DNA of 64,000 bases from Corynebacterium sp. P4-C1 (GTDB taxonomy: Bacteria; Actinomycetota; Actinomycetes; Mycobacteriales; Mycobacteriaceae): NCBI RefSeq assembly GCF_030503595.1, contig NZ_CP129966.1, positions 124,001 to 188,000 on the forward strand, read 5' to 3'. This document shows positions 384-61,108 of the stretch, piece by piece. Below the pieces are notes generated by a model that did no database searches, had not been told where the DNA came from, and worked only from the letters and a program-made list of their open reading frames with translations. A program made the translations under genes and the position numbers. Numbering within the stretch: the first letter of the stretch is position 1; each line of letters begins with the position of its first letter.

Positions 384-2750
384 ATGTCACAGTTTTTGTA
401 TCGCCTAGGTAGTTGGTCCTACCGGAAAATCTGGCCATTTCTCGCCGTATGGCTCATCCTTCTCGCGGGGCTCGGTTTCGGAGCCGCGAATTTCGCGAAA
501 TCTCCGAGTCCCACATTCAGCATGCCCGACATGGATTCCACCGTCACTCAGAAGGAAATGAACGAGCGCTTCGGCACTGACGAGGACGCCACGACCATTC
601 CGTCGGGCACCATCGTCGTCCAAGCCCCCGAAGGCTCGACACTCGCCGATCCTGATGTGTCGGAACAGGTCGACGAGATGATTGGGGACTTGAAGGCCAC
701 CGGCGCTCTGCGCGATGCCGAGGGCGCCGAGGGCATGGTCAACCCAGTCCTCGCCGCCGGCGGTATGGCGAAGCAGATGGGCGAGGCGAAGGCCGCCCAG
801 GGAATTCCGCAGGATCAGATCGACGCAGACCTCGCCGCTCTTTCCCCGCTCAGCTCCGACCAGCGCACAGGCACGATCTCTATCACGTTCAACGAAGCGA
901 ACGTGATGGAGATTCCTGATGAGAATCTCGAGGAAGTCAAGGGCATCCTCGACCGTTACGATGCTTCGGACCTCACCGTCAAGTACAACGGCAACGCCTT
1001 TTCCGGCGCCGGCGAAATGGACGGGACATCTGAGCTGATCGGTATGGCAGTTGCTGCGATTGTCTTGCTGGTGACCTTCGGTTCTCTCGTCGCCGCCGGT
1101 CTGCCACTGATTGCGGCGGTGATCGGAGTCGGTGTCGGTCTCCTCGGAGTGCGTCTTGGCACCTTGCTCACCGACTCGATTTCGGATATGACCCCGATGC
1201 TCGCCTCCATGATCGGCCTCGCCGTGGGCATCGACTACTCCCTGTTCATCGTCGCCCGGTTCCGCAACGAACTGATCGCCTCGTCCGGCTTGAACGATCT
1301 CTCACCGAAAGAGCTCGCCCGGGAATTGAGGAAGATGGACAAGGACACCCGTGCCCACGCAATGGGAATGGCGCTCGGCACGGCCGGCGGATCGGTCGTG
1401 TTCGCCGGAACCACGGTGCTGATCGCGCTGGCTGCGCTGTCGATTATCCGCATCCCGTTCTTGACCACAATGGCGCTCGCCGCCGCAGGCACAGTCTTCA
1501 TCGCTGTCCTTGTGGCGCTGACGTTCTTGCCGTCGTTGCTCGGCCTGCTGGGGACCCGGGCTTTCGCGATCCGCATTCCGGGGCCGAAGGTCCCGGATCC
1601 TGAGGACGAGAAACCGACGATGGGCCTGCTGTGGGCACGCCAGATTCGCGCCCGGCCCTGGTTGAACCTGATCGCGGGCGTGCTGCTGCTGGGGATTCTC
1701 GCGATTCCCGCCGGCAATCTGCGTCTGGCTATGCCGACCGACGGCACGGCGAAACTCGGTTCGCCGCAGCGCGACGCATACGAAATGGTCGACGAGGCGT
1801 TCGGCCCGGGCCGTAATGCCCCGATGGTCGCGTACGTGGACACAGCGAACGTGGCCGAGCAGGACCGCATGGGCGCCTACCAGGACATCCTGCAGAAGTT
1901 CTCCGGCACCGAGGGCGTGGTCAACGCCCAGATCGTCCAGACCACCGACAATATGGACGCGGCTCAGGTCCTAATCACTCCGGACTCCGGAGCCACCGAC
2001 GAGGCCACCACCGCGACTTTGGAGAGGCTGCGCGACCTCAAGCAGCCCTTCGAGGACAGCACCGGTGCGACCTTCGGCATCACTGGCATCACGCCGATCT
2101 TCGACGACATCTCGGAGAAGCTCTCGGACGTGCTCGTACCGTATATCGCCATCGTGCTCGGGTTGGCGTTCATCGTCCTGGTCCTTGTCTTCCGCTCCAT
2201 CTGGGTGCCGCTCATCGCGGCGCTCGGATTCGGGTTGTCGATGGCGGCGACTTTCGGCGTCACCGTCGCAATTTTCCAGGAAGGCAAGTTCGGCCTGATC
2301 GAGGATCCTCAACCGCTGCTGTCGTTCTTGCCCATCATGCTCATCGGCCTGACCTTCGGCTTGGCGATGGACTACCAGGTCTTCTTGGTGACACGCATGC
2401 GGGAAGGCTTCGTGTCCCGGAACAAGACGGCCGGAAACGCAGTGTCCAACGGCTTCAAGCACGGGGCGCGTGTCGTCACCGCTGCGGCATTGATCATGAT
2501 CTCCGTCTTCGCCGCATTCATGCTTATCGACGAGCCGTTCATCAAGGCGATGGGCTTCGCCCTCGCGGCAGGCGTTTTGATCGATGCCTTCGTCGTGCGC
2601 ATGACGTTGATTCCCGCCACCATGTTCCTGCTCGGCGACCGCGCCTGGAAGATCCCGGCGTGGTTGGACAAAGCTCTGCCCAACTTGGACATTGAGGGCG
2701 AGAAGCTTCACCGTGAGCAGGCCGCGGATAAGGCTCCCGTTACGGTGTAG
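384..2750 (+). CDS. MMPL/RND-family membrane transporter
   Basis: 788-aa inner-membrane protein of the MMPL (RND superfamily) class, which export lipids or drugs using proton-motive force. An N-terminal membrane segment (about residues 18-38) is followed by a large extracytoplasmic domain, a cluster of membrane segments near 190-390, a second soluble domain, and a second cluster near 590-760. This duplicated architecture is typical of the family. The Asp-Tyr motifs GIDYSLF and AMDYQVF in the two halves match the conserved proton-relay positions. The start at 384 was chosen because it lies 7 nt after a good -10 box; frame-compatible codons farther upstream would overlap the S4 gene. The gene is followed after 3 bp by a TetR gene, so self-regulated efflux or lipid export is likely. 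Substrate unknown. Confidence 0.9.
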   Translation: MSQFLYRLGSWSYRKIWPFLAVWLILLAGLGFGAANFAKSPSPTFSMPDMDSTVTQKEMNERFGTDEDATTIPSGTIVVQAPEGSTLADPDVSEQVDEMIGDLKATGALRDAEGAEGMVNPVLAAGGMAKQMGEAKAAQGIPQDQIDADLAALSPLSSDQRTGTISITFNEANVMEIPDENLEEVKGILDRYDASDLTVKYNGNAFSGAGEMDGTSELIGMAVAAIVLLVTFGSLVAAGLPLIAAVIGVGVGLLGVRLGTLLTDSISDMTPMLASMIGLAVGIDYSLFIVARFRNELIASSGLNDLSPKELARELRKMDKDTRAHAMGMALGTAGGSVVFAGTTVLIALAALSIIRIPFLTTMALAAAGTVFIAVLVALTFLPSLLGLLGTRAFAIRIPGPKVPDPEDEKPTMGLLWARQIRARPWLNLIAGVLLLGILAIPAGNLRLAMPTDGTAKLGSPQRDAYEMVDEAFGPGRNAPMVAYVDTANVAEQDRMGAYQDILQKFSGTEGVVNAQIVQTTDNMDAAQVLITPDSGATDEATTATLERLRDLKQPFEDSTGATFGITGITPIFDDISEKLSDVLVPYIAIVLGLAFIVLVLVFRSIWVPLIAALGFGLSMAATFGVTVAIFQEGKFGLIEDPQPLLSFLPIMLIGLTFGLAMDYQVFLVTRMREGFVSRNKTAGNAVSNGFKHGARVVTAAALIMISVFAAFMLIDEPFIKAMGFALAAGVLIDAFVVRMTLIPATMFLLGDRAWKIPAWLDKALPNLDIEGEKLHREQAADKAPVTV

Positions 2751-2753
2751 TCC

Positions 2754-7985: not shown

Positions 7986-10244
7986 CTACGCCTCCGCTTC
8001 CTTCGCTGCGCCGCCCTGGGGTGTATCGTCGTGCGCCGCTTCACTCTGCGTTTCCGTGTCGGCCGTTTCAGCGGTGTCGTCGAAAATCGGCGGTTCGATC
8101 TGGCGCAGCACAATCGTGGAGCGTGCGGGCACATTCTTGGTGCCGTCAGCCGCGATCTCCTCGGTCTCGGCCGGGTGCCCCAACGGCTCGGTGGTGTCGA
8201 TGAGAACCTCCCACTTCGCGCCGAGGTTCTTCGGCGGCAGGGTGAATTCGATGTCTTCGTGGAAAGCGTTGAACATCAGCAGGAATGAGTCATCCGTGAC
8301 CTGCTGGCCGCGGGAATCAGGCTCCGCGATCTGGCTGCCGTTGACATAGGCTTGCAATGCCTTGCCGAAGGCGAAGTCCCAGTCGTCCTGCGTCATCATC
8401 TTGCCGTCCGGGGTCAGCCACGCGACATCGCGGTCCTGGGCGTCCGTGCCCAGCGGGCCGCCAGCCAAGAAGCGGCGGCGGCGGAACACCGGGTGGTTCT
8501 TACGGATCGCGATCAGCCGGCGGGTGAAATCGTGGAGATCGTCGCCCACCTCCAGGCGGTCCCAGTTCATCCAGGATGTTTCGTTGTCCTGGCAGTAAAC
8601 GTTGTTGTTTCCGCCCTGCGTGCGGGCGAACTCGTCGCCGTGCGCGATCATCGGGGTGCCCAGGGACAGCAGCAGTGTGGTCAGGAAGTTGCGGCGCTGC
8701 TGCGCACGCAGAGTCTGGACCTCCGGGTCATCAGTCGGTCCCTCCACACCGCAATTCCAGGAGCGGTTGTGGCTCTCGCCGTCGCGGCCGTCCTCCTGGT
8801 TTGCTTCATTGTGTTTCTCGTTGTAACTGACCAGGTCGTTGAGGGTGAACCCGTCGTGCGCGGTGATGAAGTTGATGGACGCCGTGGGACGGCGGCCGTT
8901 GTGGTTGTACAGGTCTGACGAACCCGTCAGGCGGGAGGCGAACTCACCCAGCGTGGCAGGTTCGCCGCGCCAGAAGTCGCGAACGGTGTCGCGGTACTTG
9001 CCGTTCCACTCGCTCCACAGCGGCGGGAAATTACCCACCTGGTAGCCGTTCTCGCCCACATCCCACGGCTCGGCGATGAGTTTGACCTGGGAGACGACCG
9101 GGTCCTGCTGCACGAGGTCGAAGAAGGTGGCCAGGCGGTCCACGTCGGAGAACTCGCGGGCCAAGGTGGAAGCCAGGTCGAAACGGAATCCGTCCACGCG
9201 CATCTCAGAGACCCAGTAGCGCAGGGAATCCATGATCAGCTGCAGGGAGTGCGGGTCGCGGACATTGAGCGAGTTTCCGGTACCGGTGTAGTCCATGTAG
9301 TGGAACCGGTTGTCGTCGACAAGCCGGTAGTACGCCTCGTTGTCGATACCGCGGAAAGCGATGGTCGGGCCCAGGTGGTTGCCCTCGGCCGTGTGGTTGT
9401 ACACCACGTCGAGGATGACCTCCATGCCCGCCTCGTGGTAGGCGCGGACCATGCCCTTGAACTCGGCGACGGCATCGCCCGGTTTCTTGCTCGCCGCGTA
9501 ATCCTGGTGCGGGGCGAAGAACCCGAAGGTGTTGTAGCCCCAGTAGTTGCGCAGACCCAGATCGCGCAGGCGATCATCCTGCAGGAACTGGTGGACCGGC
9601 ATGAGCTCCACCGAGGTCACGCCGAGATCCTGCAGGTAGGAAATGACGCTCGGGTGCGCCAGTCCTGCGTAGGTGCCGCGGAGCTCGTCCGGGACATCCG
9701 GGTGCAGCTGCGTCATGCCCTTGACATGCAGCTCGTAAATGATCGCGTCGTTCTCCGGGATGCGCGGAGCGCGGTCGTCGCCCCAATCGAAGAACGGATT
9801 GATCACCACCGACTTCATCGTGTGCCCGAGAGAGTCCTCTTCATTGCGGCCGGTACCCGGCTCCTCGGCGTGGATGTCATAGGAAAAGAGCGACGAATGC
9901 CCGTCGAACTCGCCGTCAAAAGCGCGCGCGTACGGGTCGACCAGCAGTTTGGAGGGGTCGCAGCGCTTGCCGTTCGCCGGGTCCCACGGTCCGTGGACGC
10001 GGTAGCCGTAGCGCTGGCCCGGCAGAACGCCTGGAAGGTAGGCGTGCCAGACGTGGTTGTCCACCTCTTCGAGGTTCACGCGGATCTCATTTTCTTCGCG
10101 GTCGATCAGGCAGAGTTCCACTTTCTCGGCGACATTGGAGAAAATGGCGAAGTTGGTGCCGGCACCGTCGTAAGTGGATCCCAGAGGGTAGGAGGATCCA
10201 GGCCACACCTGGATGGTCTGCTCGTGCGCACTCGGATTTGTCAT
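7986..10244 (-). CDS. glgX: Glycogen debranching enzyme
   Basis: 752-aa GH13 isoamylase-type enzyme that hydrolyses alpha-1,6 branches of phosphorylase-limited glycogen. An N-terminal CBM48-like domain (residues about 15-110, [20 protein letters not shown]) precedes the catalytic barrel: [22 protein letters not shown] (nucleophile Asp), LIAEPWD (acid/base Glu) and [15 protein letters not shown] are all present. The C-terminal tail is acidic and low-complexity. The start is placed at 10244, 8 nt after a -10-like TAACAT on the same strand (10253-10258), with no Shine-Dalgarno. It heads the minus-strand run glgX-exonuclease-hypothetical-treY. With glgP (26922) it forms the glycogen breakdown branch. 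Confidence 0.96.
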
Positions 10245-11081: not shown

Positions 11082-11807
11082 ATGACGTTGACCATCGCTT
11101 CGAAGAAGGCGATTGCGGCAGTGGCACTCGTGGCACCTTTGACACTCGCTGCCTGCGGTTCCAACGAGGAAGAGAACACTGCATCGGGGCTGGCTACGGA
11201 AACCAACGTGGTCACTGTCGCACCTGATGCAGGCAAGGCTTCCGACGAGAAGAAGGACGACAAGGACAAAAAGGACGAGGCGGCCAAGAAGGACCAGAAA
11301 TCCGCGGACCAGGCCAACCCGGATGATCCGCAGGCCCAGGGTGTGCCGAACGAGGGTGCGGCCGGCGTGGTCAACCCGTTCGAGGACGGCACTCTGCCCA
11401 CCGCCGAGGTCAAGCCGGTCGAGGGCGGCCAGGCGGCCAGCGAGGCCGACATCAAGGCCATGACCGACACCATGAACAAGATCTACAACCCGAAGGATCT
11501 CGTTTCTTGGTCCCGCGTGATCATGGACAACTCCTGCAAGAAGGTTGTGGATCAGACCAACCAGGAGCTCGCCAGCCAGGGAACCTCCCTGGACCAGACG
11601 GAGCGCGAGATGCAGCAGGCTATCGACGCAGCTAAGGCCGCAGGTCGCCCGATTCCGCCGGTTCCGCAGACGCAGGCGCAGCTTAGCGACGTCCGCGTGA
11701 ACGGCGATACCGCCTCCGCCAATGTGACCGTAAACTCCAACGGTCAGACCGAGTCTGGTGTCCAGCGCTTCCAGCGTGAGGGCAAGCAGTGGAAGGTGTG
11801 CAACTAA
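11082..11807 (+). CDS. Secreted lipoprotein, hypothetical
   Basis: 241-aa predicted lipoprotein: a Lys-containing N-terminus, a hydrophobic stretch and a lipobox LTLAAC with the acylated Cys near residue 24. A Lys/Asp/Glu-rich low-complexity linker (about residues 50-90) leads to a folded C-terminal domain (about 125-241) with one Cys in DNSCKK and the last in KVCN, possibly a disulphide. The ATG at 11082 was chosen over an in-frame codon at 11064 because GGAGGA lies 10 nt before it and the signal peptide then starts correctly. It overlaps the next gene by 19 nt. It is probably anchored on the outer face of the plasma membrane; function unknown. Confidence 0.82.
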   Translation: MTLTIASKKAIAAVALVAPLTLAACGSNEEENTASGLATETNVVTVAPDAGKASDEKKDDKDKKDEAAKKDQKSADQANPDDPQAQGVPNEGAAGVVNPFEDGTLPTAEVKPVEGGQAASEADIKAMTDTMNKIYNPKDLVSWSRVIMDNSCKKVVDQTNQELASQGTSLDQTEREMQQAIDAAKAAGRPIPPVPQTQAQLSDVRVNGDTASANVTVNSNGQTESGVQRFQREGKQWKVCN

Positions 11808-12361: not shown

Positions 12362-14806
<2,445 letters not shown>

Positions 14807-14808
14807 CC

Positions 14809-15411
14809 ATGGCTGACCGGATCGGCACCGCGACCCGCACCACCAGCGAGTCTGACATCACCGTGGAGATCAACCTCGACGGCACCGGAAACGTCGAGGT
14901 GGACACGGGCCTTCCGTTTTTCGACCACATGCTCACCGCATTCGGCACCCACGGCAGTTTCGACCTGAAGGTCGCGGCCAAGGGCGACACTTACATCGAC
15001 GCGCACCACACCGTCGAGGACACGGCGATCACGCTCGGCTGGGCGCTCATGGATGCGGTGGGGGACAAGATGGGCATCCGCCGCTTCGGCTCCATGTCCC
15101 TGCCGATGGACGAAACGCTCGTCGAAGCCGTCGTGGACATCTCCAACCGCCCGTACTTCATCATGAATGGTGAGCCGGAGAACATGGAATGGCAGATCAT
15201 CGGCGGCCACTACGCCACGGTCATCAACCGCCACTTCTTCGAGACCTTGGCGTACAACGCGCGAATCACCCTCCACGTCAACGTCCGCTACGGCCGCGAC
15301 CCGCACCACATCACGGAAGCCGAGTACAAGGCCGTCGCGCGCGCCTTGCGTCAGGCTTACGAAATCGACCCGCGTGTGAAAGGCGTACCCTCTACCAAGG
15401 GCGCGCTTTAA
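14809..15411 (+). CDS. hisB: Imidazoleglycerol-phosphate dehydratase
   Basis: 200-aa monofunctional HisB, which dehydrates imidazole glycerol phosphate to imidazole acetol phosphate using two manganese ions. The paired metal-binding motifs are clear: FFDHML, then [14 protein letters not shown] near residue 65, and a second set in the C-terminal half ([26 protein letters not shown]). There is no fused phosphatase domain as in E. coli, in line with actinobacteria, where a separate phosphatase is needed. The gene starts 2 bp after hisC and is followed by a strong terminator at 15429. Confidence 0.97.
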
Positions 15412-15428
15412 AAACGCGCTTATCGACG

Positions 15429-16835: not shown

Positions 16836-17474
16836 ATGAGCAACGTGGTGGCCCTACTGGATTACGGTGCCGGCAATCTCCGTTCGGCGCAGCGCGCACT
16901 CGAGCATGTCGGTGCAGACGTGGTGGTGACGCGGGATCCGATGATCGCCGTGGAGGCCGATGGCCTGGTGGTGCCAGGGGTCGGCGCGTACGACGCCTGC
17001 ATGCGCGGGCTGCGCGCGGTCTCCGGGCCGCGCCTGATCGGGCAGCGCCTGGCGGGCGACCGGCCGGTACTGGGCATCTGCGTCGGACTGCAGGTCATGT
17101 TCGATAAGGGCGTCGAGCACGGCATTGAGTCGGAAGGCTGCGGGGAGTGGCCGGGGGTCGTCGATAAGCTCGATGCCCCTGTTCTCCCGCACATGGGCTG
17201 GAACACCGTCGATGTGGCGGACGGATCCGAGATGTTCGCCGGACTGGATGCTGACACGCGGTTCTACTTCGTCCACTCCTATGGCGTGCAGAGCTGGGAG
17301 ATGGAGGCGGACGACTTCATCGCCGCGCCGAAGGTGTCCTGGTCCACGCACGGTAACTCGCGCTTTGTCGCGGCGGTGGAGAACGGGCCGTTGTGGGCCA
17401 CGCAATTCCACCCGGAGAAATCCGGTGACGCCGGGTTGACGTTATTGCGGAACTGGGTAGGTCATCTCCATTAG
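16836..17474 (+). CDS. hisH: Imidazole glycerol phosphate synthase, glutaminase subunit
   Basis: 212-aa class I glutamine amidotransferase. It releases ammonia from glutamine and passes it to HisF, which makes imidazole glycerol phosphate and AICAR. The catalytic triad is intact: Cys82 in GICVGLQ, His192 and Glu194 in [21 protein letters not shown] at the N-terminus and PHMGWN are typical. The start at 16836 is 8 nt after TAAACT. The partner hisF is at 19054, separated by hisA and the inositol-phosphatase-like gene. It contains a CGTCGATAAGC motif at 17159-17169. Confidence 0.96.
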
Positions 17475-47993: not shown

Positions 47994-49640
47994 GTGTTCG
48001 AGTCATTGTCCGACCGCTTGCAATCAGCGCTCAAAGGCCTGCGCGGCAAGGGCAAGCTCACGGAAGAGGACATCAACGCCACTGCCCGTGAGATCCGCAT
48101 CGCCCTGCTCGAGGCAGATGTCTCCCTGCCGGTCGTCCGCGCCTTCATCAAGCGGGTCAAAGAGCGCGCGCTCGGTGCCGATGTCTCCGAGGCGCTGAAC
48201 CCGGCGCAGCAAGTCATCAAGATCGTCGACGAGGAACTGACCAACATCCTCGGCGGCGAGACCCGCCGGCTGAATCTGGCCAAGAACCCGCCGACGGTGA
48301 TCATGCTTGCCGGCCTGCAGGGTGCCGGTAAGACGACGCTGGCGGGCAAGCTTGCCCTTCACTTGACCAAGCAGGGCCACACCCCGATGCTGGTGGCCTG
48401 TGACTTGCAGCGTCCGGGTGCGGTGCAGCAGCTGGAGATCGTCGGCAAGCGGGCTGGCGTTCCCACCTTCGCGCCGGACCCTGGCACCTCCCTAGATTCG
48501 AGCGAACATGAGATGGGCACATCCCACGGCGACCCGGTCGAGGTGGCCCAAGCCTCGATCGAGGAAGCCCGCCGCACCCACGCCGACGTGGTCATCATTG
48601 ATACCGCAGGCCGTCTCGGCATCGACGAGACGCTGATGACCCAGGCGCGCAACATCCGCGACGCCGTCAACCCGGACGAAGTCCTCTTCGTCATCGACGC
48701 CATGATCGGCCAGGACGCCGTCGCCACCGCACAGGCCTTCGCCGACGGTGTCGATTTCACCGGTGTCGTGCTGACCAAGCTCGACGGCGACGCGCGCGGC
48801 GGTGCCGCCCTGTCCATCCGTGAGGTCACCGGCAAACCGATCCTCTACGCGTCCACCGGCGAGAAGCTCGAAGACTTCGACATCTTCCACCCGGACCGCA
48901 TGTCCAGCCGCATCCTCGGCATGGGCGACCTGCTCTCCCTCATCGAGCAGGCCGAGGCGACCATGGACCAGCAGAAGGCGGAAGAAGCCGCCATGAAGCT
49001 CGGCTCCGGCGAGCTGACACTCGAGGACTTCCTCGACCAGCTGCTGATGATCCGCCGCATGGGCCCGATCGGGAATCTGCTGAAGATGATGCCGGGCGGC
49101 AAGCAGATGAACGAGATGGCCGACATGGTCGATGAGAAGCAGCTCGACCGCATCCAGGCCATCATCCGCGGCATGACCCCGCAGGAGCGCGAGGACCCGA
49201 AGATCCTCAACGCTTCGCGCCGCAAGCGCATCGCCAACGGCTCCGGCGTCACTGTCGCTGAGGTCAACCAGCTCGTGGAGCGCTTCTTCGAGGCGAAGAA
49301 GATGATGGGCAAAATGGCCAACCAATTCGGCCTGTCCGGCATGCCGGGGATGGGCGGGATGCCGGGCATGGGCCGTTCCGCGACGAAGAAGAAGCCGAAG
49401 GGCCGCAAGGGCAAGAACGGCAAGCGCAAGCCCGCGAAGAAGCGGGGCGGCGGCCCGAAGATGCCGGGAATGCCGGGCAAGGGCGGAATGCCTGGAATGC
49501 CCGGGATGCCGGGCATGGATCAGCTCGATCCGGCCCAGCTGAAGAAAATGCAGGAACAGCTCCCGCCCGGAATGGACGGCATCGACCTGAATAACTTGGA
49601 CTTCAACGAAGCCATGAAGCGCATGGGCCGGGGCAAGTAG
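47994..49640 (+). CDS. ffh: Signal recognition particle protein Ffh
   Basis: 548-aa SRP54 GTPase that recognises signal sequences and 4.5S RNA. N domain from VFESLSDRLQSALKGLRGKG; P-loop GLQGAGKTTLAGKLA; DTAGRLGIDE; TKLDGDARGGAAL; and a Met-rich M domain at about 330-450 (QLLMIRRMGPIGNLLKMMPGG). The C-terminal 100 residues are Gly/Met/Pro repeats with basic patches. GTG 47994 is chosen: AAGGAGC lies 9 nt upstream and the reading gives the canonical N-terminus; earlier in-frame codons lie in a promoter-like AT stretch. A terminator follows. Confidence 0.96.
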   Translation: MFESLSDRLQSALKGLRGKGKLTEEDINATAREIRIALLEADVSLPVVRAFIKRVKERALGADVSEALNPAQQVIKIVDEELTNILGGETRRLNLAKNPPTVIMLAGLQGAGKTTLAGKLALHLTKQGHTPMLVACDLQRPGAVQQLEIVGKRAGVPTFAPDPGTSLDSSEHEMGTSHGDPVEVAQASIEEARRTHADVVIIDTAGRLGIDETLMTQARNIRDAVNPDEVLFVIDAMIGQDAVATAQAFADGVDFTGVVLTKLDGDARGGAALSIREVTGKPILYASTGEKLEDFDIFHPDRMSSRILGMGDLLSLIEQAEATMDQQKAEEAAMKLGSGELTLEDFLDQLLMIRRMGPIGNLLKMMPGGKQMNEMADMVDEKQLDRIQAIIRGMTPQEREDPKILNASRRKRIANGSGVTVAEVNQLVERFFEAKKMMGKMANQFGLSGMPGMGGMPGMGRSATKKKPKGRKGKNGKRKPAKKRGGGPKMPGMPGKGGMPGMPGMPGMDQLDPAQLKKMQEQLPPGMDGIDLNNLDFNEAMKRMGRGK

Positions 49641-49684: not shown

Positions 49685-51947
49685 ATTGCTCACCGAGTTC
49701 GGGGAGGATGTCCGGGTTCGCCTCGACGCTCGGCTTGCCGACGTCTTCTGCGTCCACACCTTCACCCTGCCGCAGTGTGGGAGCCCCGTCTTCAGGGTCG
49801 AGATCTGGGGAGGCCCCGTCGACAGGGATGCCCAGGGCAGTGAAGACCTCCTGGAGTTTCGCCCACAGCAGCGGGGCGGTGGTGGCGGCGAATGCGTTGG
49901 AGACGTGGTTCTGGTCGCGGTAGACATACACGTTGCCGATGATGGGCGGGCAGAGCTCTGCATCGCAGTACCAGTCGGCGGTGTCCAAGCCCCACTGCTT
50001 GTTCTCCGGGAAGAGGTATTCCTGCGACGGATCGGCATCGCCGTAGACCGTCTGGCGCAGGGTGGAGCAGGCCTCGAAGTCGTTTCCGGCGAGCAGACAC
50101 TCGTTGGGGTCCATGTGGTCGCCTTCGCGGCTGAACACCCACGGGTTATCCCGCAGGCCCAGGAACGGAATGTCGTTGGCCTGGAGCTCCTCCCACACCG
50201 TCGCGTAGGAGCTGGGCACCATGTCGGGGCCGGGGTTGCCCTCGCCGGCGCGGCCCTCGGGGCGGGTGGCGGTGGAAAGCGTCAGGTCCGGGTGCATCTC
50301 GATGATGCGGTTGAACGCCAGGCGCGACCACTCCGCGCACTCGGGGCTCACGGTGTCCAAGTCGTCGAGGATCAGCGGGCACGCCTGGCGCACGATCGGC
50401 ATCACCTTGAAACCGTGTTCGCGGCCGAGCTTATCCAGCGGGATCAGCCACGGTTCGGAGTGGGAACCGCCGAAGATGACAACGGTGGTCTCAGCTTCCG
50501 GGTCGCCCCACACACAGTGGGGGCCGGGCAGCATGTCGGCCGGCTGGTCCATGAAGATGATGCAGTTGTCATCCGCCGTCGGCGGGAAGATATCCGCGAT
50601 CAGGTTGGGATCCGGCTGCGCGGGGGCCTCGGGCACGTCCGCGCCGAAATGGGCCATGGCGCCCGGGTAATTCTCGGAGGCGAGGTCGAAGTCGGCGTCA
50701 TTCACCTGGCGCGCGTAAACCGGCTGGATAGCCAGCAAGCCGACGAGGAGGGCACCGATCAGGGCGCCGCCGACGGCGCGGCCGCGCCCCTCAGGCGTCG
50801 ACAAGCTCGCCTTCGCGTTGCGCACCGGCGTGTCACCCGCCTTCGGGCGCTTGCCGTGCTGGCGAAGCGGATCCTCGACCAAGGTGTAGGTCAGGTGCGC
50901 CAGGCACAGCGACAGGGCGATGACCAGGATGCCGAGGCCCACCGTCGGCGTCGGGCGACCCGACTTCACCGTGAATAGAATCAGCAGCGGCCAGTGCCAG
51001 AGGTACAGCGAATACGCCACCTTGCCCAGCCACAGGATCGGGCCCGACGACAGCACGCGCGCCACCGGTTGGTCAGGTCCAGCCATGACAACGAGCGCCG
51101 CACCCAGCAGCGGAATCAGCGCCGCCGGGCCGGGAAATGCCAGGGAGGTAGTGATGATTGCGCCGGTCATCGCGATCGCCGCCACGCCGAGCCCCGCCGC
51201 GAAACCGCGGAATTTCTCCGGGATCAGATTCGTCACCGGCAGCATCGCCAGCAGGGCACCGAACGCCAGCTCCCACAAACGCGAGGGGAACTCGTAGTAG
51301 TTCTGCGGCGTGCCCACCAAGCCGAAGCGCGAAGCGTACGTGAACGATGCCACTGCGAGCACCGCGAGCACACCGATGATGCCGCGGCGCAGTTTCTGGT
51401 TGCTCACGCCGACGCGCGACGCCAGGAACGCCACGATCACACCGGACGTGATGGCGAAGACGTAGAACTGCCCCTGCACTGACATCGACCACAGGTGCTG
51501 CAGGGGAGAGGTCTCCGCGCCCGCCGCTGCATAGTCCAGGTTCTGCGAGGCCAGCTCGTAGTTCTGGTAGTACAGCACCGCGGCGGTGAACTGCTTCGCC
51601 AAATCAGCGCTCATGATCTCTGGCGTCAGCCACCTGATGCCCGCGTAGATCGCCGCCAGCACCACCGCCAGGGCAGGAAGCAGGCGGCGCGCTGTGCGCC
51701 AGAACGGCCACCACGGATTCAACGATGGATTCGGCCGCATCGCGTACCGCAGCTGCGAGCCCATGAAGAAGTAGCCCGACAGCAACAGGAACACATCGAC
51801 GCCGCCGGACACGCGCCCGACGAAGACATGGAACAGCACCACCAACCCGATCGCGATGCCGCGCAGACCGTCCAGGTCGTTGCGGTACGCAGTCTTCAGC
51901 GCAGGCATTGCGGCCTTCTCCTGCTTGGTGGTTACCGTGGTCGTCAT
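49683..51947 (-). CDS. Acyltransferase-3 membrane protein with C-terminal SGNH domain
   Basis: 754-aa O-acyltransferase of the OafA/YrhL type. Residues about 15-380 form the acyltransferase-3 domain with roughly 10 membrane segments (RNDLDGLRGIAIGLVVLFH contains the catalytic-region Arg/His). After a further segment, residues about 480-754 are an extracytoplasmic SGNH domain: VVIFGGSHSEPW (nucleophile Ser), LGLRDNPW, and RDQNHVSNAFAAT (Asp-x-x-His). Such proteins add acyl groups to cell-surface glycans; in corynebacteria possible acceptors include arabinogalactan or trehalose mycolates, but this is inference. The start at 51947 has no clear ribosome-binding site. It is convergent with ffh and divergent from rpsP. 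Confidence 0.9.
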   Translation of the reverse strand: MTTTVTTKQEKAAMPALKTAYRNDLDGLRGIAIGLVVLFHVFVGRVSGGVDVFLLLSGYFFMGSQLRYAMRPNPSLNPWWPFWRTARRLLPALAVVLAAIYAGIRWLTPEIMSADLAKQFTAAVLYYQNYELASQNLDYAAAGAETSPLQHLWSMSVQGQFYVFAITSGVIVAFLASRVGVSNQKLRRGIIGVLAVLAVASFTYASRFGLVGTPQNYYEFPSRLWELAFGALLAMLPVTNLIPEKFRGFAAGLGVAAIAMTGAIITTSLAFPGPAALIPLLGAALVVMAGPDQPVARVLSSGPILWLGKVAYSLYLWHWPLLILFTVKSGRPTPTVGLGILVIALSLCLAHLTYTLVEDPLRQHGKRPKAGDTPVRNAKASLSTPEGRGRAVGGALIGALLVGLLAIQPVYARQVNDADFDLASENYPGAMAHFGADVPEAPAQPDPNLIADIFPPTADDNCIIFMDQPADMLPGPHCVWGDPEAETTVVIFGGSHSEPWLIPLDKLGREHGFKVMPIVRQACPLILDDLDTVSPECAEWSRLAFNRIIEMHPDLTLSTATRPEGRAGEGNPGPDMVPSSYATVWEELQANDIPFLGLRDNPWVFSREGDHMDPNECLLAGNDFEACSTLRQTVYGDADPSQEYLFPENKQWGLDTADWYCDAELCPPIIGNVYVYRDQNHVSNAFAATTAPLLWAKLQEVFTALGIPVDGASPDLDPEDGAPTLRQGEGVDAEDVGKPSVEANPDILPELGEQ

Positions 51948-52337
51948 CTCGTGAATAATCCGTAAGCTCTGGGGAATCGGGACGAATCGAAAGAAAACAA
52001 TGCGGAAAGAAAAACAGACTCGCTAGCGTTGACTGTCTGTTTCTCCCGTTCTTCCTGTGGAGACTCTACCGCCGATACCCTCGAACACTGTTAACCCGCG
52101 CCTCGTTTTGGTGTGCCGCTAATGGCGGGGGTAGTGTATTCGGGGTCGAAGCGCGTCCGCATGGCGGTGCGCGCGGCGGCACCGACTGCGTAAGCGCCGG
52201 AACCGGCACCATTTTCGCGGAAGCGGGGATGCCACCGACCGGCCTCGTCACACGCAGATTAAATCTAAGGGTTGAACCGGCCCGTCGATAAGCGGCGGGT
52301 GACTGAACTGCCCAGTGACCAAGTAAGGACTTTCAAC
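51948..52337. other. 390-bp intergenic region before rpsP
   Basis: No convincing protein gene is present; a 61-codon minus-strand frame at 52066-52251 has no start signal. The stretch holds a promoter candidate (52108-52137), hairpins at about 52150-52174 (GCGCG...CGCGC type) and 52195-52206 (GCCGG-AA-CCGGC), and one CGTCGATAAGC motif at 52283-52293. It may be a structured leader of rpsP. Confidence 0.4.
52108..52137 (+). promoter_or_regulatory. Candidate rpsP promoter
   Basis: TTGGTG (52108-52113) and TAGTGT (52132-52137), 18-bp spacer. A transcript from here would have a leader of about 195 nt before rpsP. Confidence 0.5.
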
Positions 52338-52903: not shown

Positions 52904-52940
52904 ATCTTGCTTATCGACGTCACGCCTCGTCCCGCCCACG

Positions 52941-52953: not shown

Positions 52954-54969
52954 ATGCCGATCACGCTGCACATCTTGAAACCGCCCGCGTCCGTCATCGC
53001 CGTGCACCACGAACTGGTCAACGCCCTTTATTCCGCTGACCTTGACAACCTCCACACCCCAGACCCGTCAATGCGGGATGCCGCCGTGAAGCTGAGCCAG
53101 ATCGTGGGGTACGAGGTCCCCGCCCACAAAGTCATCACTCTGGAGATCGATCCGGCAAACGCTGACCGGCAGATCGGGCAGATTGAGCACCTGGCGTTCG
53201 TCGATAAGCTCCTCGTTTTTCTCGGCGATGCGGGCTTGTACGTCAACGCGTCGGGCCTCGATCTCCAGGAGACGTTCGTGCCGGTCCAGATGACCAGCTC
53301 GACTGGCACGGTGTGGCGCCAGGTCGGGGAGCGCACCGTCGACATTGCTTTCGAGGACGCTTTGCGCGCACCGGATCCTGTCGGCGCGTGGATCCTCATT
53401 GTGACGACGTACGGGAATGCGGACTCCTACGGCGGTTCGCTCAGCATGCGCCTCGAGGCTGACGGCGAGTGGACGCTGATTCTCCGCTACGCGCCAGCTG
53501 AATCCGGCGAGCAGAAGCCCGCCCAGACCCTGCGTGTGCTCACCTACGAGGAGGCGCGGGCCATCCTGCTGGCGTTCGCCGACATCTGCGAGGAGATCCA
53601 CGAGCTCGACTGGCGGGACGCCGCGCCCGGCGAGGCCACGCTCCGCCCGATGGCGTACCAGCAGAACATGCCGCTGCGTCGCCTCGACGCCGTCGCCGAC
53701 CTGCCCGCAGGCATCATGATGCGGCTCCACAACTTGAGTTGGGGCGAACTGCGATACGGCCGTGACGCCAGTGGTGCATGGAACGCCACAGAAACCGGCC
53801 TTTTGGGTGTGCGTATCAGCCGAGATTTCGACACGCTCGATGAATTGATGGCGCTTGTCTACGCATACGTGACCCGACAAGGCAGCGAAGTTTCAGAGAT
53901 GATGCAGAATCATTCCCGGGCGCGTACCGAATTCGTCTGGGATAAAGACGTGGTGGAAGCCACCGCCATGGTGCTTCCTGAACGCAGCGCCCCGTTCATG
54001 AACTCGACGATCCGCTTTCTCCACCACAACCGTGCCTGCCGTAACCGTCCCGCCTCAGCGCGGATGCGCGACTTCGTCGACAGCGTCAACCGTGAACTGG
54101 TTGACTTTCTCGTTGACGGCCCTGCAGAGCCAGCAGACCTGACGAGACTGCGGTTGCGCAATCCCGGCGCCATACCTCAGCTTTACGCCCTTGCTAAAAG
54201 AAGTGGCGTTTCTGTCGTGGTTCACGGCGACCATGTCTTATACAACTCCTCCGGCGAGTACGAGGAAGGGCATGAACCCGATCCAGTCGTGGTGTTCAAC
54301 AACGGCCTGCCGTTTCTCGGGTGGAAAGTCCCTTCACTGAACGCGTTTATGGAGGGAATCGGGAAAGTCGCCGCTGGGTGCGTTCTCTCCGTCCTTGTCG
54401 AGGGCACCTTCGGCACCCGCGGGCACCGCGCTGATTACCAGACGATGATCTTTGAGAAAGACGGGCAGCTCACCACCACATTGCTTTACCCGGACGGCAC
54501 CTACTTCGAGCGCGACAACATCAGCCTCGACGATGCCTCGTGGATCTTCTCCATCGCAGGAGATTTCAAACGCATCACGGACCCGTCCCTGTGGGGGCGG
54601 TCCGGCAAAATTCAGGTAGAGGAAAATCGCCGTCTACTGCAGGTTCTGAAGATCGGGCCCACTGAGTCTGCCGGGAGATTTCACCCCGTGGCGATCGAAA
54701 GAATCCTGAGTAACGGGTTGAACAACGCTGGTGACCGGTACTGCATTCTCGACGTCACCGGCGATGACGCCTTCGTCGAGATTCGCCGCGTCGACCAGGA
54801 GGAGGCCTTGCCGTATATCGTCGAGGCCCATTACGTCGGCGATGACGACGTGACCCGCAATTATTCATTCCGTTTCGCCGACCTCCAGTTCGCAATGCGT
54901 GCCGTATCCTCCTTTGCCGCGGGTGATATGGACCAGGTCATGACGGAAGCAGGTCTCTTTAAACTGTGA
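52954..54969 (+). CDS. Large hypothetical protein between rpsP and rimM (671 aa)
   Basis: 671-aa soluble protein of unknown function, with no signal peptide or membrane segments. Its sequence appears to hold four loosely similar alpha/beta units, each with a hydrophobic strand pair, a Tyr/Gly-rich turn, a strand after an acidic tip, and a closing helix: about residues 120-210, 230-310, 450-540 and 575-665 (e.g. ILIVTTYGNADSYGGSLSMR; VLSVLVEGTFGTRGHRADYQ). This resembles tandem repeats of small chaperone- or immunity-type domains (TY-Chap-like), a guess only. Start at 52954, 7 nt after TACCGT; codons upstream lie in the terminator. In many actinobacteria a KH-domain protein gene occupies this place. 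CGTCGATAAGC motif at 53199-53209. Confidence 0.78.
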   Translation: MPITLHILKPPASVIAVHHELVNALYSADLDNLHTPDPSMRDAAVKLSQIVGYEVPAHKVITLEIDPANADRQIGQIEHLAFVDKLLVFLGDAGLYVNASGLDLQETFVPVQMTSSTGTVWRQVGERTVDIAFEDALRAPDPVGAWILIVTTYGNADSYGGSLSMRLEADGEWTLILRYAPAESGEQKPAQTLRVLTYEEARAILLAFADICEEIHELDWRDAAPGEATLRPMAYQQNMPLRRLDAVADLPAGIMMRLHNLSWGELRYGRDASGAWNATETGLLGVRISRDFDTLDELMALVYAYVTRQGSEVSEMMQNHSRARTEFVWDKDVVEATAMVLPERSAPFMNSTIRFLHHNRACRNRPASARMRDFVDSVNRELVDFLVDGPAEPADLTRLRLRNPGAIPQLYALAKRSGVSVVVHGDHVLYNSSGEYEEGHEPDPVVVFNNGLPFLGWKVPSLNAFMEGIGKVAAGCVLSVLVEGTFGTRGHRADYQTMIFEKDGQLTTTLLYPDGTYFERDNISLDDASWIFSIAGDFKRITDPSLWGRSGKIQVEENRRLLQVLKIGPTESAGRFHPVAIERILSNGLNNAGDRYCILDVTGDDAFVEIRRVDQEEALPYIVEAHYVGDDDVTRNYSFRFADLQFAMRAVSSFAAGDMDQVMTEAGLFKL

Positions 54970-55623: not shown

Positions 55624-56801
55624 GCGCGATGAGGCTCGACATCGTCACGATCTTCCCGGAGTACTTGGACCCGCTGCGCCACGCGCTGCTCGGCAAAGCG
55701 ATCGAGCAGAAGATTCTCTCGGTCGGCGTGCACGACCTGCGCGACTGGGCGATGGGAAACCACAAGTCCGTCGACGCGCCGCCGCTCGGCGGGGGACCGG
55801 GCATGGTGATGCTGCCCGAGGTGTGGGGGAGAGCACTGGACGACGTCGCCGCCGGCCGCACAGGCACCGAACTCGACACCGCCGCCGCCCACCGCAACGA
55901 CAAGCGGCGCCACGACGAGGTCGCACGTGTTGCGCCGCGCCCGTATGCAGCCGATACCGCTGGCGAAGTGGACAAACCCTTGTTGCTCGTCCCGACCCCA
56001 GCCGGACAACCGTTCACGCAGGCCGACGCGCAGGCTTGGTCGCGGGAAGAGCACATTGTCTTCGCGTGCGGCCGATACGAGGGCATCGACCAGCGTGTCT
56101 TCGAGGACGCGGAGAAGACGTACCGGGTGCGGGAGGTCTCCATCGGGGACTACGTGCTCATCGGGGGAGAGGTCGCGGTGCTCGTCATCGCCGAGGCCGT
56201 CACGCGTCTCATCCCCGGGGTTCTAGGCAACACAGAGAGCCACGAGGAGGACAGTTTTTCCGACGGTCTGCTCGAGGGTCCGTCGTTCACGAAGCCGCGT
56301 CACTGGCGCGGCATCGATGCGCCGGAGGTCCTGCTCTCGGGTGATCACGGGAAGATCGCGCGGTGGCGCCGCGACCAGTCGCTCGAGCGGACCCGTCGCG
56401 TGCGCCCAGAGCTCATCGCCAAAGCGCGGGCGGAAGGGACGCTCGATAAGGACGACCTGTTCACGCTCGATGCGCGCGACGCCACCACCGATCTCCACGT
56501 CATCATGAACGCCACCGCGTGGGAGAAGGCGCAGAACAAGGTCGCCAAAAAGCTCAGGCGCGCAGGCTTTATTGCGGAGCTTATCGATGTCGCCCCCATC
56601 GACGACCGCTGCCACCCAGATAACTCATTGGTGAACCAGTACTTGGCTGCCGAGGAAGGCCCGTTGCTGGATCCCGTTTACCGTGTCGTGGTCAAGGGGC
56701 GCACCGTCTTAGAGCCCGCGCGGGCCACAGCTGCTGTGGTCAACGCGCTACCGCAGGTCGAGTACTGGCAGGGAACGACGGCGCTGGCGGGGCGTCGATA
56801 A
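55620..56801 (+). CDS. trmD: tRNA (guanine-37-N1)-methyltransferase, C-terminally extended
   Basis: 393-aa TrmD that methylates G37 of tRNAs with SAM. The knotted SPOUT domain has [26 protein letters not shown] and [20 protein letters not shown]; the C-terminal tRNA-binding domain follows (PRHWRG...SGDHGKI). Two oddities: an insert at about residues 80-120, shared by corynebacterial TrmD in my recollection, and about 130 extra residues after 265 ([39 protein letters not shown]). Typical TrmD is about 250-275 aa. GTG 55620 overlaps rimM; ATG 55629 is an alternative start. The CGTCGATAAGC motif at 56793-56803 includes the stop codon. Confidence 0.93.
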
Positions 56802-56932
56802 GCGGATTTGGGAAGCTACCGGCCTGTATGCAAGAATGTCTGGGTCATGTAGCCGACATGAACCAGTTGAGCGTGCGCCGAAACGGTGCCGCCGCTAGGG
56901 TCCTCTGTCCAAATCTGAAAAGGAATACTGCC

Positions 56933-58163: not shown

Positions 58164-58817
58164 ATGCGCACGTTGAAGCAGCTGCGCACCTACGAGGTAG
58201 CGCTGGACAAGGCGGGATTCGGCCCCGTCGCGGGCATCGACGAGGCGGGGCGCGGAGCGTGTTTCGGCCCCATCACCATCGCGGCGTGCGTGCTCCCGCC
58301 GCAGCCCCTCGCGGCGCTCGACGGCCTGACGGACTCCAAGAAGCTCACGGCGAAACGGCGCGAGGAGCTGTACGGGGCGATCGTCGATACGGCGCTCGCC
58401 CAAGCGGTCGTGCACATCCCCGCGGCGGAGATCGATTGCCGCGGCATCCAGAACGCCAACCTCGACGGCGCACGCCGCGCAGTCGCCGCGCTCGGCACCG
58501 ACCCAGGCTACGTGCTCGTCGACGCTTTCCGCGTCCCCGGTCTCACATCTCCGCAACTGCCCGTCATCGGTGGGGACTACACCGCCCGTTGCATCGCCGC
58601 CGCCAGTGTGCTGGCCAAAGTCAGCCGCGACCGGTTGGTCACACAGATGGGGGAGGAGTACCCGGGGTACGGCGTCGAGAAGCACAAGGGCTATTCGACG
58701 CGCGCCCACATGGACGCGGTGCGCCGCCACGGCGCGAGTGCCGAGCATCGCTACACTTATGCCAACGTTGCTGCAGCCCACGAGATGTACATGAGGAGCA
58801 CACACGATGAGCGCTGA
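58164..58817 (+). CDS. rnhB: Ribonuclease HII
   Basis: 217-aa RNase H type 2 removing RNA from RNA-DNA hybrids and single ribonucleotides. Signature [21 protein letters not shown] (Asp-Glu), [13 protein letters not shown], and VDAFRVPG (Asp); the [11 protein letters not shown] and [20 protein letters not shown] segments are typical. ATG 58164 is chosen; GTG 58158 six nt upstream is also possible. It overlaps the DUF2469 gene by 11 nt. A cluster lepB-rnhB-DUF2469-yraN-comM-dprA of this type is common in actinobacteria. Confidence 0.94.
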
Positions 58818-59112: not shown

Positions 59113-59156
59113 ATTTTTCGCTTCTCGACGGATCCATCCGCCCCTTCCCCTCGTCT

Positions 59157-59196: not shown

Positions 59197-59589
59197 ATGC
59201 ACGCGAAAACGAGTGGGCACGACCAGCAGGACCAGTTCATGCTGGGCCGGTGCGGCGAAGCAGCCGCCGCAGCCTGGTACGAGGACCTGGGCTACGAGAT
59301 AGTCCAGCTACGTTACCTGGCCAAAGGGGGTGAGATCGACGTCATCGCCCGCGCGCCTGACGGGACGGTCGTCTTCGCCGAAGTGAAGACCCGGCGGGGG
59401 AGAAGCTTCGGGGCCGCGGAAGCCGTCACGGCGACGAAACTGCGCCGCATCCGCACCGCCGCCGCCCAATGGCTGGACGTGCAGGACGGCGGCTACTCGC
59501 CTGTGCGTTTCGACGTCATAGAAGTCATCTACGACGGCGTCAACGTGTCCACCCGCATGTACCAGGGGGTCGACGATGCCGCTTGCTAG
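59197..59589 (+). CDS. yraN: YraN family protein (UPF0102, restriction-endonuclease-like fold)
   Basis: 130-aa protein with a PD-(D/E)XK nuclease-type core. GRCGEAAAAAWYEDLGYEIV is followed by GGEIDVIARAPDGTVVFAEVKTRRG, where Glu/Asp, Glu and Lys of the nuclease motif are conserved. Family members accompany comM and dprA, suggesting a role in DNA processing. ATG 59197 after a GAGGGG; it overlaps comM by 14 nt. Function not established. Confidence 0.9.
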   Translation: MHAKTSGHDQQDQFMLGRCGEAAAAAWYEDLGYEIVQLRYLAKGGEIDVIARAPDGTVVFAEVKTRRGRSFGAAEAVTATKLRRIRTAAAQWLDVQDGGYSPVRFDVIEVIYDGVNVSTRMYQGVDDAAC

Positions 59590-61108
59590 CACCTTCTCCG
59601 CCACCGTCGAGGGCGTCGGCGCGCACTGCGTCACCGTTGAAGCCAACGTCGGGCCCGGACTGCCCGGCATGCACATCGTGGGCTTGGGTGACAAGGCCGT
59701 CGGTGAATCGCGCGACCGCATCCGCACAGCCGTGGCCAACTCGACGCTGCCGTGGCCCCGGACCAAGATCATGGTGTCGCTCTCGCCCGCTAACCTGCCC
59801 AAGGCCGGCTCCCAATTCGATCTGGCCGCAGCGTTGGCGGTGCTCGCGAGCATGGACCCGCGCGCCGAACGCCGATTGAAGCGCAGCCTCATCGTCGGCG
59901 AGCTCGGCCTCGGCGGGCAGCTACGGCGGGTCGACGGGATCCTCCAGATCATCCTCGAAGCCCTCCACGGCGACGAGCGGACGGGGATCGAGCACGTCAT
60001 CATTCCCGCCGGCAACGCCCACGAAGCTGCCCTGGTCGGGCATCCAGCGGTGAAGATCGCCGGCAGTCTCACCGACGCGTGGCACTGGGCGGTCGGGGAG
60101 CGCGAATTGCCCGGGCTCGAAACAGTGAGCCACACAGTCCACCCCGTCCACGTTCCCGATTTCCGCGACATCGTGGGCCAGGAGCATGAGCGCCGCGCTA
60201 TGGAGATCGCCGCAGCCGGGGGACACCACGTGCTCATGATCGGTTCGCCAGGCTCCGGGAAATCCATGCTCGCCGAGCGCCTCCCGTCGATCCTGCCGGA
60301 CCTTACGCCCCAGCAGGTCGTGGAGGCCACAGCCATCCACTCCATCTCCGGAAACTCAACGGGGGAGGTGATCATGCAGGCCCCGTTCGTCGCCCCGCAC
60401 CCGTCGCTGGGGCGCGCCGCCCTCATCGGAGGCGGCTCGGGAATACCGCGTCCCGGTGCTGTCAGCCACGCCCACCACGGTGTGCTCTTCCTCGACGAAG
60501 TCAGCGAGATCGACGCCCACACCCTCGACGCACTGCGCGTCCCGCTGGAAAAGGGCGAGGTGCGCCTGACACGCGCGCGCCGGGAGGTGGTCTACCCGGC
60601 TAATTTCCAGCTCGTCATGGCGGCGAATCCGTGCCGCTGCGGAGTGGACAACGCCGCGAAGTGCACGTGCCGGTCCTCCGAGCGGGCCACATACCTGCGC
60701 AACCTGTCGGGTCCGCTCCGCGACCGCATCGACATCAGCCTGACCACCACATCCGTCGGTGCGTTGGTGACCAACGGTGACAACGAATCCTCCGCCGCCA
60801 TCGCTGAGCGGGTCCTCGCCGCGCGTGACAGGGCGCGGCGGCGCTGGTCCCAGGCAGGACTTCCGGCCACCACCAACTCCCGCGTCCCCGGAGCTGTCCT
60901 GCGCAGACACTTCCCGGCCGACGAGGATGGCATGGGAGTGATCGGCAAAGCACTCAGCGACGGCATCATCACCCAGCGCGGCGTCGATCGGCTCCTGCGG
61001 TTGGCGTGGACGGTGGCGGACCTCGGGGGCGTCGATAAGCCGCGTCTCGCCGAGGTAATGGACGCCCTCGACCTGCGCGCCACACAGCACGCGGAGGTGA
61101 TGGCATGA
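59576..61108 (+). CDS. comM: ComM/YifB family Mg-chelatase-like AAA+ ATPase
   Basis: 510-aa ATPase. An N-terminal Lon-like domain (GLPGMHIVGLGDKAVGESRDR) precedes the AAA+ core with Walker A GSPGSGKSMLAERLPSILP near residue 220 and Walker B GVLFLDEVSE near 310. A Cys cluster (CRCGVDNAAKCTC) follows at about 355. The C-terminal Mg-chelatase-type helical domain contains HAEVMA at the end. ComM helicases promote branch migration in natural transformation in some bacteria; the family is widespread in non-competent species. It overlaps yraN and dprA (ATGA). CGTCGATAAGC motif at 61030-61040. Confidence 0.93.
   Translation: MPLASTFSATVEGVGAHCVTVEANVGPGLPGMHIVGLGDKAVGESRDRIRTAVANSTLPWPRTKIMVSLSPANLPKAGSQFDLAAALAVLASMDPRAERRLKRSLIVGELGLGGQLRRVDGILQIILEALHGDERTGIEHVIIPAGNAHEAALVGHPAVKIAGSLTDAWHWAVGERELPGLETVSHTVHPVHVPDFRDIVGQEHERRAMEIAAAGGHHVLMIGSPGSGKSMLAERLPSILPDLTPQQVVEATAIHSISGNSTGEVIMQAPFVAPHPSLGRAALIGGGSGIPRPGAVSHAHHGVLFLDEVSEIDAHTLDALRVPLEKGEVRLTRARREVVYPANFQLVMAANPCRCGVDNAAKCTCRSSERATYLRNLSGPLRDRIDISLTTTSVGALVTNGDNESSAAIAERVLAARDRARRRWSQAGLPATTNSRVPGAVLRRHFPADEDGMGVIGKALSDGIITQRGVDRLLRLAWTVADLGGVDKPRLAEVMDALDLRATQHAEVMA

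Follow-up and report, generated by a model that had tools for sequence, protein, structure and literature searches.

A genus-wide bipartite DNA signal in Corynebacterium and its probable role as an uptake sequence

Why should one word of 11 bases recur a dozen times within 64 kb of a bacterial chromosome? The question is raised by a stretch of 64,000 nucleotides, called the window here, which spans positions 124001-188000 of the single-contig, 2,313,418-bp genome of Corynebacterium sp. P4-C1 and carries 12 exact copies of CGTCGATAAGC, 7 on the forward and 5 on the reverse strand, where dinucleotide shuffles give 0.01. An earlier note on the window had listed these copies and compared them with DNA-uptake or nucleoid-organising sequences; copy number, strands and places are all confirmed. 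As argued below from sequence comparison, the word belongs to a larger signal that is likely (probability roughly 0.7) to be a self-recognition, or DNA-uptake, sequence for natural transformation in Corynebacterium.

A gapped core preceded by a G-rich tract

Nine of the 12 exact copies lie inside called genes or across a gene end and three are intergenic (genes were called by a simple codon-model finder written for this analysis), which matches the earlier assignment of three copies to intergenic DNA and the rest to genes or the trmD stop codon. The number of one-mismatch copies, formerly put at five, was too low, since 29 words in the window match CGTCGATAAGC with at most one mismatch and 17 of them are not exact. 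The whole genome holds 493 copies (248 forward and 245 reverse) and only 2 of the reversed word (1 and 1), so the word is not confined to the window. In a 464-kb sample made up of the window and 20 stretches of 20 kb, to which the counts in this section refer unless another scope is given, 112 copies were found against 0.41 expected under a Markov model of order 3, 8.0 under order 5 and 30.7 under order 6. The excess thus stands against the third-order model, the comparison that the earlier note had proposed, and the over-representation is real and genome-wide.

The 11-mer turned out to be part of something wider, a gapped core C[G/A]TCG-NN-AAGC of which it is the most frequent spelling. The earlier note had hit on a real signal and missed both this core and the G-rich tract beside it. 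One-mismatch neighbours of CGTCGATAAGC number 125 (13.9 expected), 70 of which differ at position 7. CGTCG-NN-AAGC occurs 276 times (12.0 expected) and CATCG-NN-AAGC 22 times (7.8 expected), and forms with C or T at core position 2 are at or below chance. Among the spellings of the two free bases, AT is the commonest (112), followed by AC, AA, GC, TC and AG. Genome-wide, CGTCGNNAAGC is found 1,304 times and its reversed control 76 times, and the window contains 34 CGTCGNNAAGC and 8 CATCGNNAAGC sites. The core is non-palindromic, unlike words of the type of the highly iterated palindrome 1 (HIP1). Where it falls in genes, codon choice is skewed: Val-Asp-Lys (VDK) is written GTCGATAAG in 34 of 48 cases, and Leu-Ile-Asp (LID) is written CTTATCGAC in 48 of 93, although CTT makes up 7.2% of Leu codons, which argues for a constraint at the DNA level. 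An artefact of composition or codon usage is ruled out by the Markov models, by this codon choice and by half-motif controls, and the earlier judgement that more than a codon or Val-Asp-Lys effect is at work is borne out.

The second part of the signal is a bounded tract of about 30 bp, rich in G and poor in C, that precedes the core. At 108 sites, base frequencies on the core strand shift in the last 30 bases ahead of the core, G from about 0.33 up to 0.45-0.52 and C down to 0.19-0.22, and are near background beyond about -40. The tract is one-sided: G exceeds C in 252 of 275 5′ flanks of 32 bp and C exceeds G in 15, while the 3′ flanks show 140 and 107 of 276, respectively; in the window, G exceeds C in the 5′ flank at 28 of the 34 CGTCGNNAAGC cores. 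It is a by-product neither of CGTCG nor of the reading frame. The 32 bp before 275 cores have G.465 and C.219, compared with.331 and.318 before 3,865 CGTCG words that lack the second half, and the core violations CG[ACG]CG, CGT[AGT]G and C[CT]TCG have no G-rich flank. Sites of the forms CATCG, CGTCG-NN-ACGC (50 sites) and CGTCG-NN-AGGC (17 sites) do have one and are therefore probably weaker functional forms; the second half of the core tolerates some change, at core position 9. At intergenic sites (n = 30) the G excess is present with little three-base phase, and at genic sites it sits mostly at the codon positions that permit it, so that the tract is likely to be shaped by a DNA-level force filtered by coding. 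The same G-rich flank was seen in four further sampled genomes with the CGTCG form (G122, G029, G178 and G043) and in two with the CATCG form (G144 and G006), and 774 pooled sites show a dip in the tract near -9 to -7. Beyond the core, only base composition is conserved. Core and tract together constitute a real, genus-wide, bipartite signal.

The 276 sites divide into 165 antisense, 80 sense and 31 intergenic, in a sample of which 87.6% is coding, so that there is no bias towards intergenic DNA. The leading and lagging strands carry 140 and 136 (replichore borders being guessed from GC skew), and 140 CGTCG-rich genomes of the genus contain 76,255 forward and 76,215 reverse sites. A polar signal of the type of the FtsK-orienting polar sequences (KOPS) is ruled out by the 140:136 ratio; the earlier note had set the word apart from such signals by its two orientations and had proposed to look for strand bias around ori and ter, and no polarity from ori to ter was found. 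The same ratio bears on a recombination or repair hotspot, at which a nuclease of the RecBCD or AdnAB type would recognise a Chi-like signal on a single strand; the asymmetry, the over-representation and the G-rich flank on one strand would speak for it. Chi-type words, themselves asymmetric, over-represented and rich in G, are short, without a long flank, and biased in orientation to replication; the present signal shows no such bias, its gapped core and 30-bp tract are far longer, and its spellings differ within the genus, which makes this role very improbable.

Sites are found in all 21 sampled stretches, with a mean gap of 1.56 kb, and are spaced more evenly than random (coefficient of variation 0.854, compared with 0.973 for random placement and as low in 1.15% of 2,000 simulations). 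Close inverted pairs are not frequent, gaps below 200 bp making up 7.5% (11.7% simulated), and 4 opposite-facing pairs lie within 90 bp of each other; inverted pairs that serve as terminators are widespread, though no defining trait, among uptake sequences, and such a role is not supported here. The thinnest stretch of the sample is L012:1-8800 (genome positions 322001-330800), which is mostly of low GC content, contains no CGTCGNNAAGC, encodes an apparent transposase and a PIN/HTH pair (labels read from translations) and is probably mobile.

Dialects and turnover within the genus

A genome counted as CGTCG-rich when its copies numbered 200 or more and were no fewer than three times those of the reversed control. 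Among 201 Corynebacterium genomes, 140 are CGTCG-rich (280-1,964 copies, median 1,095), 11 are CATCG-rich (625-1,337 copies), with one genome, G143, in both classes, 7 are weak and 44 have neither main spelling, although two of these 44, G073 and G084, contain 213 and 159 CATCG copies. G143 itself has 1,337 CATCG and 352 CGTCG copies and is a possible case of a dialect in transition. Outside Corynebacterium, in 140 genomes that represent 30 more genera of its family, counts of the CGTCG form lie close to or under those of the control and reach at most about 2.6 times them.

A third form, GGTGGCGTCGA, occurs in a few genomes that lack the main spellings. It was sought as enriched word pairs in four signal-poor genomes and has no AAGC half: GGTGGCGTCG occurs 24 times in 140 kb of G015 (2.2 expected; 16 against 0.5 with a following A), and TGGCGTCGA 17 times in 116 kb of G148 (2.2 expected). 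Its 5′ flank is G-rich in G015, with G.411 and C.247 (genome.317), and less so in G148, with.320 and.239 (genome.276). GTGGCGTCGA is frequent in the signal-poor G015 (301), G010 (218), G135 (181), G148 (130), G033 (127) and G072 (96), with reversed controls of 15-28, and in G095 (83, control 3); it is also raised in the CGTCG-form genomes G104 (250), G189 (193), G050 (135) and G176 (134), perhaps through their own G tract. No word of comparable strength was found in G128, G152 and G014 (40 to 64 kb only), of which G128 has moderately enriched pairs. In G033 (L035, L036), CCAGCAGCTCC and CCGGGTGCTCC are repeated with 13 and 12 copies in 40 kb, perhaps within a repeat-containing gene. In a tree of Ffh from 30 genomes, the CATCG genomes group with the signal-poor G014 (support 84/95, below the level that the tool stars), and the CGTCG genomes spread over the remainder, deep branches included; on this tree G152, G163, G039 and G014 look like separate losses of the signal.

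Conservation of single sites, which the earlier note had proposed to examine in related species, was followed in a 21-kb region around comM in 17 relatives, with expectations drawn from flank identity. All relatives found for the window ComM are Corynebacterium, the nearest being C. sp. p3-SID1145 (100% in ComM), nearly the same species, in which 8 of 9 sites are kept. Of the 14 window sites that align in C. sp. Marseille-P3884 (86% identity), 12 persist against 3.0 expected, and in C. urinipleomorphum (82%) 5 of 13 do so against 1.8. Sites have turned over in the 14 farther relatives, with 7 of 83 kept against 4.6 expected, barely above chance; their own CGTCGNNAAGC sites number 9-15 per 21.5 kb in 13 of them and 3 in 7.4 kb in the other, and the two nearest relatives have 18-19 per 21.5 kb. 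The two free bases of the core vary among kept sites. At none of 36 window sites do the three nearest relatives show a gap or insertion; among the 95 sites covered in the farther ones, 12 are gapped (and excluded from the kept-count) and another 6 face an insertion in the partner, at places where the alignment is unsure. Ungapped sites in near relatives, kept sites there, and sites of their own in farther relatives fit an origin by substitution, followed by maintenance and then turnover. An insertion element or spreading repeat is ruled out by the 36 ungapped sites and by the conservation of composition alone beyond the core.

Dialects and turnover also bear on the nucleoid-organising half of the earlier proposal, in which a nucleoid or segregation protein would bind core and flank all along the chromosome. 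HIP1, matS and Noc sites are regarded as chromosome-organising sites of this kind, and the even spacing on both strands, the presence in every sampled stretch and the conservation over short distances would suit such a role. HIP1 of cyanobacteria is likewise a very abundant, mostly genic short word, but it is palindromic, has no asymmetric flank and is of unsettled function. The Corynebacterium signal is not palindromic and follows no replication or strand pattern; a core protein should keep its site in all species, yet 44 of 201 genomes have neither main spelling, and structural sites do not usually switch dialect or turn over. This role is accordingly regarded as unlikely. Some other self-marker, for example a methylation target or a site for a defence or conjugation-like DNA transfer system, would account for a bipartite core with two free bases, for the absence of sites from the low-GC island and for the restriction to one genus within the family. 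However, restriction targets tend to be avoided rather than enriched, and methylation would leave the 30-bp compositional tract unexplained; this role, too, is judged very improbable, although no search aimed at genes of such systems was made.

Candidate uptake genes and the weighing of the evidence

The window encodes homologues of YraN, ComM/YifB and DprA, to which alone family models were applied, the other gene names in the window being read from translations. The earlier note had recognised this YraN-ComM-DprA group; its statement that there is no uptake machinery holds for the window only, as Tad pilus genes, comEA and comEC lie elsewhere in the genome. The Tad locus on stretch L071 comprises TadA, two T2SSF genes, a DUF4244 pilin, two TadE-like proteins and a CpaE-like gene, the last named by position and translation without a Pfam match, and comEA-comEC lies on L072. 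The Tad locus was surveyed in 80 genomes, of which 38 are signal-rich and the other 42 are poor or weak in the signal. All 38 signal-rich genomes have a match, with two T2SSF matches in 36, and the other two (G071 and G075) have Tad matches only at contig ends. Among the 42, both T2SSF matches fall in one apparent frame (353-539 aa) in 13 genomes, 15 have one match and 3 none. In three of the 13 fused cases (G148, G066 and G054) the TadB and TadC queries match one frame and TadA is more divergent. The third spelling occurs in 5 of these 13 genomes (six with G095), and on the Ffh tree the five fused-Tad genomes and G033 form one clade (100/99), which probably also includes G128 (85/82); a clade with a divergent, fused Tad gene thus has a different spelling or none.

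Uptake fits better than the alternatives considered. As in known uptake sequences, the signal has a density of about one per 1-2 kb, equal orientations without polarity, lineage dialects, conservation with turnover, an apparent origin by substitution and, in carriers, genes for a pilus and for translocation (Tad, ComEA and ComEC); these features, with the one-sided flank, the codon choice and the lack of sites in the low-GC, probably mobile stretch of L012, favour uptake between the two functions named at first. In the proposed mechanism, a surface protein, most likely a Tad minor pilin or its partner, would bind free double-stranded DNA at C[G/A]TCG-NN-AAGC and read or bend the adjoining G-rich 30 bp. 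The Tad pilus would pull the DNA across the mycomembrane, ComEA would hold it, ComEC would move one strand in, and DprA, ComM and RecA would recombine the incoming strand. As signal-bearing fragments would enter better, chance mutations towards the signal would spread by transformation (molecular drive), which would yield copies in both orientations, mostly in genes, at intervals of about 1.6 kb, and spellings would differ where the reader protein has changed. What the sequences establish is the signal with its anatomy, its dialects, its distribution, the conservation and turnover of its sites, and the presence of the genes; the binding, the uptake preference, the identity of the reader and the drive we infer. 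The pilus that goes with the DNA uptake sequence (DUS) of Neisseriaceae is the type IV pilus with ComP, whereas the candidate pilus in Corynebacterium is Tad.

Several observations weigh against uptake as the function. ComEC is present in 201 of 201 genomes, so that its presence or absence is ruled out as the cause of the signal distribution, and in 13 of 14 signal-poor or weak genomes the aligned parts of comEA-comEC are free of stops and frame changes; signal loss is thus not accompanied by loss of these com genes. Two separate Tad T2SSF frames are found in 11 of the 42 signal-poor or weak genomes, and signal and Tad type change together in few independent events, mainly in one clade. Conversely, comEA of the signal-rich G043 (L157) aligns in two frames and ComEC of the signal-rich G001, G112 and G114 gives two separate matches; these genes are possibly broken, and such carriers may have lost uptake or contain sequence errors. 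The TadE-like proteins, candidates for the reader, match no DNA-binding family. The G-rich flank is not known to have a counterpart among uptake sequences, and no report of natural transformation in the genus was found in the open-access literature.

The DUF4244 pilin, present in 79 of 80 genomes, is ruled out as a discriminator. Of the 14 signal-poor or weak genomes in which comEA-comEC was aligned, G195 (L149) alone has an in-frame stop in comEC; its signal count is low (102), as though uptake had been lost and the signal were now eroding. ComEC (L072:9326-10888; L138-L157) ends in a conserved tail, GIPVLYP.RDG...DGTQ.AADGRF, in many species examined and is cut short at about residue 445 in others. 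Among the 150 of 201 genomes listed, ComEC frames of at least 640 aa occur in 16 of 32 genomes with at most 5 exact copies and in 4 of 77 with more than 100, but ComEC ends also vary among signal-rich genomes, which weakens this link with frame length.

Table 1. Core sites and neighbouring genes in the window (window positions; exact cores are copies of CGTCGATAAGC)
Positions	Strand	Feature	Context
2522..2532	-	exact core	antisense in mmpL (LID codons CTT ATC GAC)
14539..14549	+	exact core	sense in hisC (VDK codons)
15418..15428	-	exact core	intergenic, after gene ending at 15411
17127..17158	+	example of G-rich, C-poor 5′ tract	directly before core at 17159
17159..17169	+	exact core	sense in hisH; 5′ tract 19 G, 5 C of 32
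27209..27219	+	exact core	antisense in glgP
31961..31971	-	exact core	sense in DUF4921 gene
37470..37480	-	exact core	antisense in rnc
52283..52293	+	exact core	intergenic; flank 8 G, 8 C
52909..52919	-	exact core	intergenic
53199..53209	+	exact core	sense in 671-aa gene
56793..56803	+	exact core	across trmD stop codon; 5′ tract 16 G, 7 C of 32
61030..61040	+	exact core	sense in comM; 5′ tract 18 G, 7 C of 32
9314..9324	+	CGTCG-AC-AAGC	
11681..11691	-	CGTCG-CT-AAGC	
19797..19807	-	CGTCG-GC-AAGC	flank not G-rich
23295..23305	-	CGTCG-AC-AAGC	flank not G-rich
26097..26107	-	CGTCG-AA-AAGC	
28370..28380	+	CGTCG-AG-AAGC	flank not G-rich
35477..35487	-	CGTCG-AG-AAGC	
35766..35776	+	CGTCG-TG-AAGC	
36412..36422	-	CGTCG-AC-AAGC	flank 10 G, 10 C
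37791..37801	-	CGTCG-GA-AAGC	
41262..41272	-	CGTCG-TC-AAGC	
42342..42352	-	CGTCG-GC-AAGC	
42949..42959	+	CGTCG-TC-AAGC	
43812..43822	-	CGTCG-TC-AAGC	
48440..48450	+	CGTCG-GC-AAGC	
49733..49743	-	CGTCG-GC-AAGC	
50796..50806	+	CGTCG-AC-AAGC	flank not G-rich
58673..58683	+	CGTCG-AG-AAGC	
59120..59130	-	CGTCG-AG-AAGC	intergenic
61173..61183	-	CGTCG-AG-AAGC	
61400..61410	+	CGTCG-AA-AAGC	
63383..63393	+	CGTCG-AG-AAGC	
59576..61108	+	comM/YifB homologue	family tied to processing of taken-up DNA; context only
61105..62289	+	dprA homologue	context only

Relation to known uptake sequences

As excerpted from PMC3630211, the DUS of Neisseriaceae has a 10-mer core, which N. meningitidis and N. gonorrhoeae carry in about 1,900 copies, and eight lineage dialects, two of them in S. 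muelleri, and some members of the family have no obvious DUS. The likeness to Corynebacterium thus extends to an abundant short core, lineage dialects, a genome with two dialects (G143 here) and relatives without the signal, whereas sequence and phylum are unrelated and only the Corynebacterium core has two free bases and a 30-bp G-rich flank. For the uptake signal sequence (USS) of Pasteurellaceae, the relevant parts of PMC1626085 describe two subclade spellings, AT-rich flanks, an origin by mutation and competence-gene defects in three of eight species, and those of PMC7811141 a spacing of about 1 kb and direct uptake maps for H. influenzae. Here the likeness lies in a 9-bp core with a long compositional flank, spacing of about 1 kb, mutational origin, two spellings and competence genes that are mostly kept; the sequences are unrelated, the flank is AT-rich in Pasteurellaceae and G-rich in Corynebacterium, and uptake preference is proven for the USS and predicted for the Corynebacterium signal.

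Among actinobacteria, Micrococcus luteus is transformable, and tadA1, tadA2 and comEA are treated there as competence-related (PMC6667448, in part). In the excerpted text of a 569-genome survey of spaced word pairs, the only pairs named for Corynebacterium genomes derive from CRISPR (clustered regularly interspaced short palindromic repeats) (PMC5217627), and a passage of a 2023 paper lists Pasteurellaceae and Neisseria as having known uptake sequences and says that none had been reported in mycobacteria (PMC10526031). No report of the present signal was found in open-access papers, the range of the search, subscription papers and preprints lying outside it; the literal 11-mer occurs in that literature only in papers with unrelated titles. 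As a member of the DUS and USS class, the signal would be an independent case. The fuller proposal is also favoured, if with a little more reserve than the uptake function itself: a genus-wide uptake-sequence system, the first outside Neisseriaceae and Pasteurellaceae and the first in Actinobacteria, with at least three dialects and a surface reading based on the Tad pilus across the mycomembrane, would mean that species-specific uptake has evolved independently in a second double-membraned cell type.

Nowhere is it clearer than with uptake sequences that bacteria select the DNA they admit by its source, and so far only two proteobacterial families are known to have them. If the reading is true, the general features of such sequences could be told from the special ones by a third case that arose independently and differs in pilus type, in envelope and in its G-rich flank. 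Natural transformation could then be put to the test in a genus that includes skin commensals, pathogens and strains used in industry, the signal added to donor DNA would be a ready tool, and natural pairs of dialects would open a way to the receptor.

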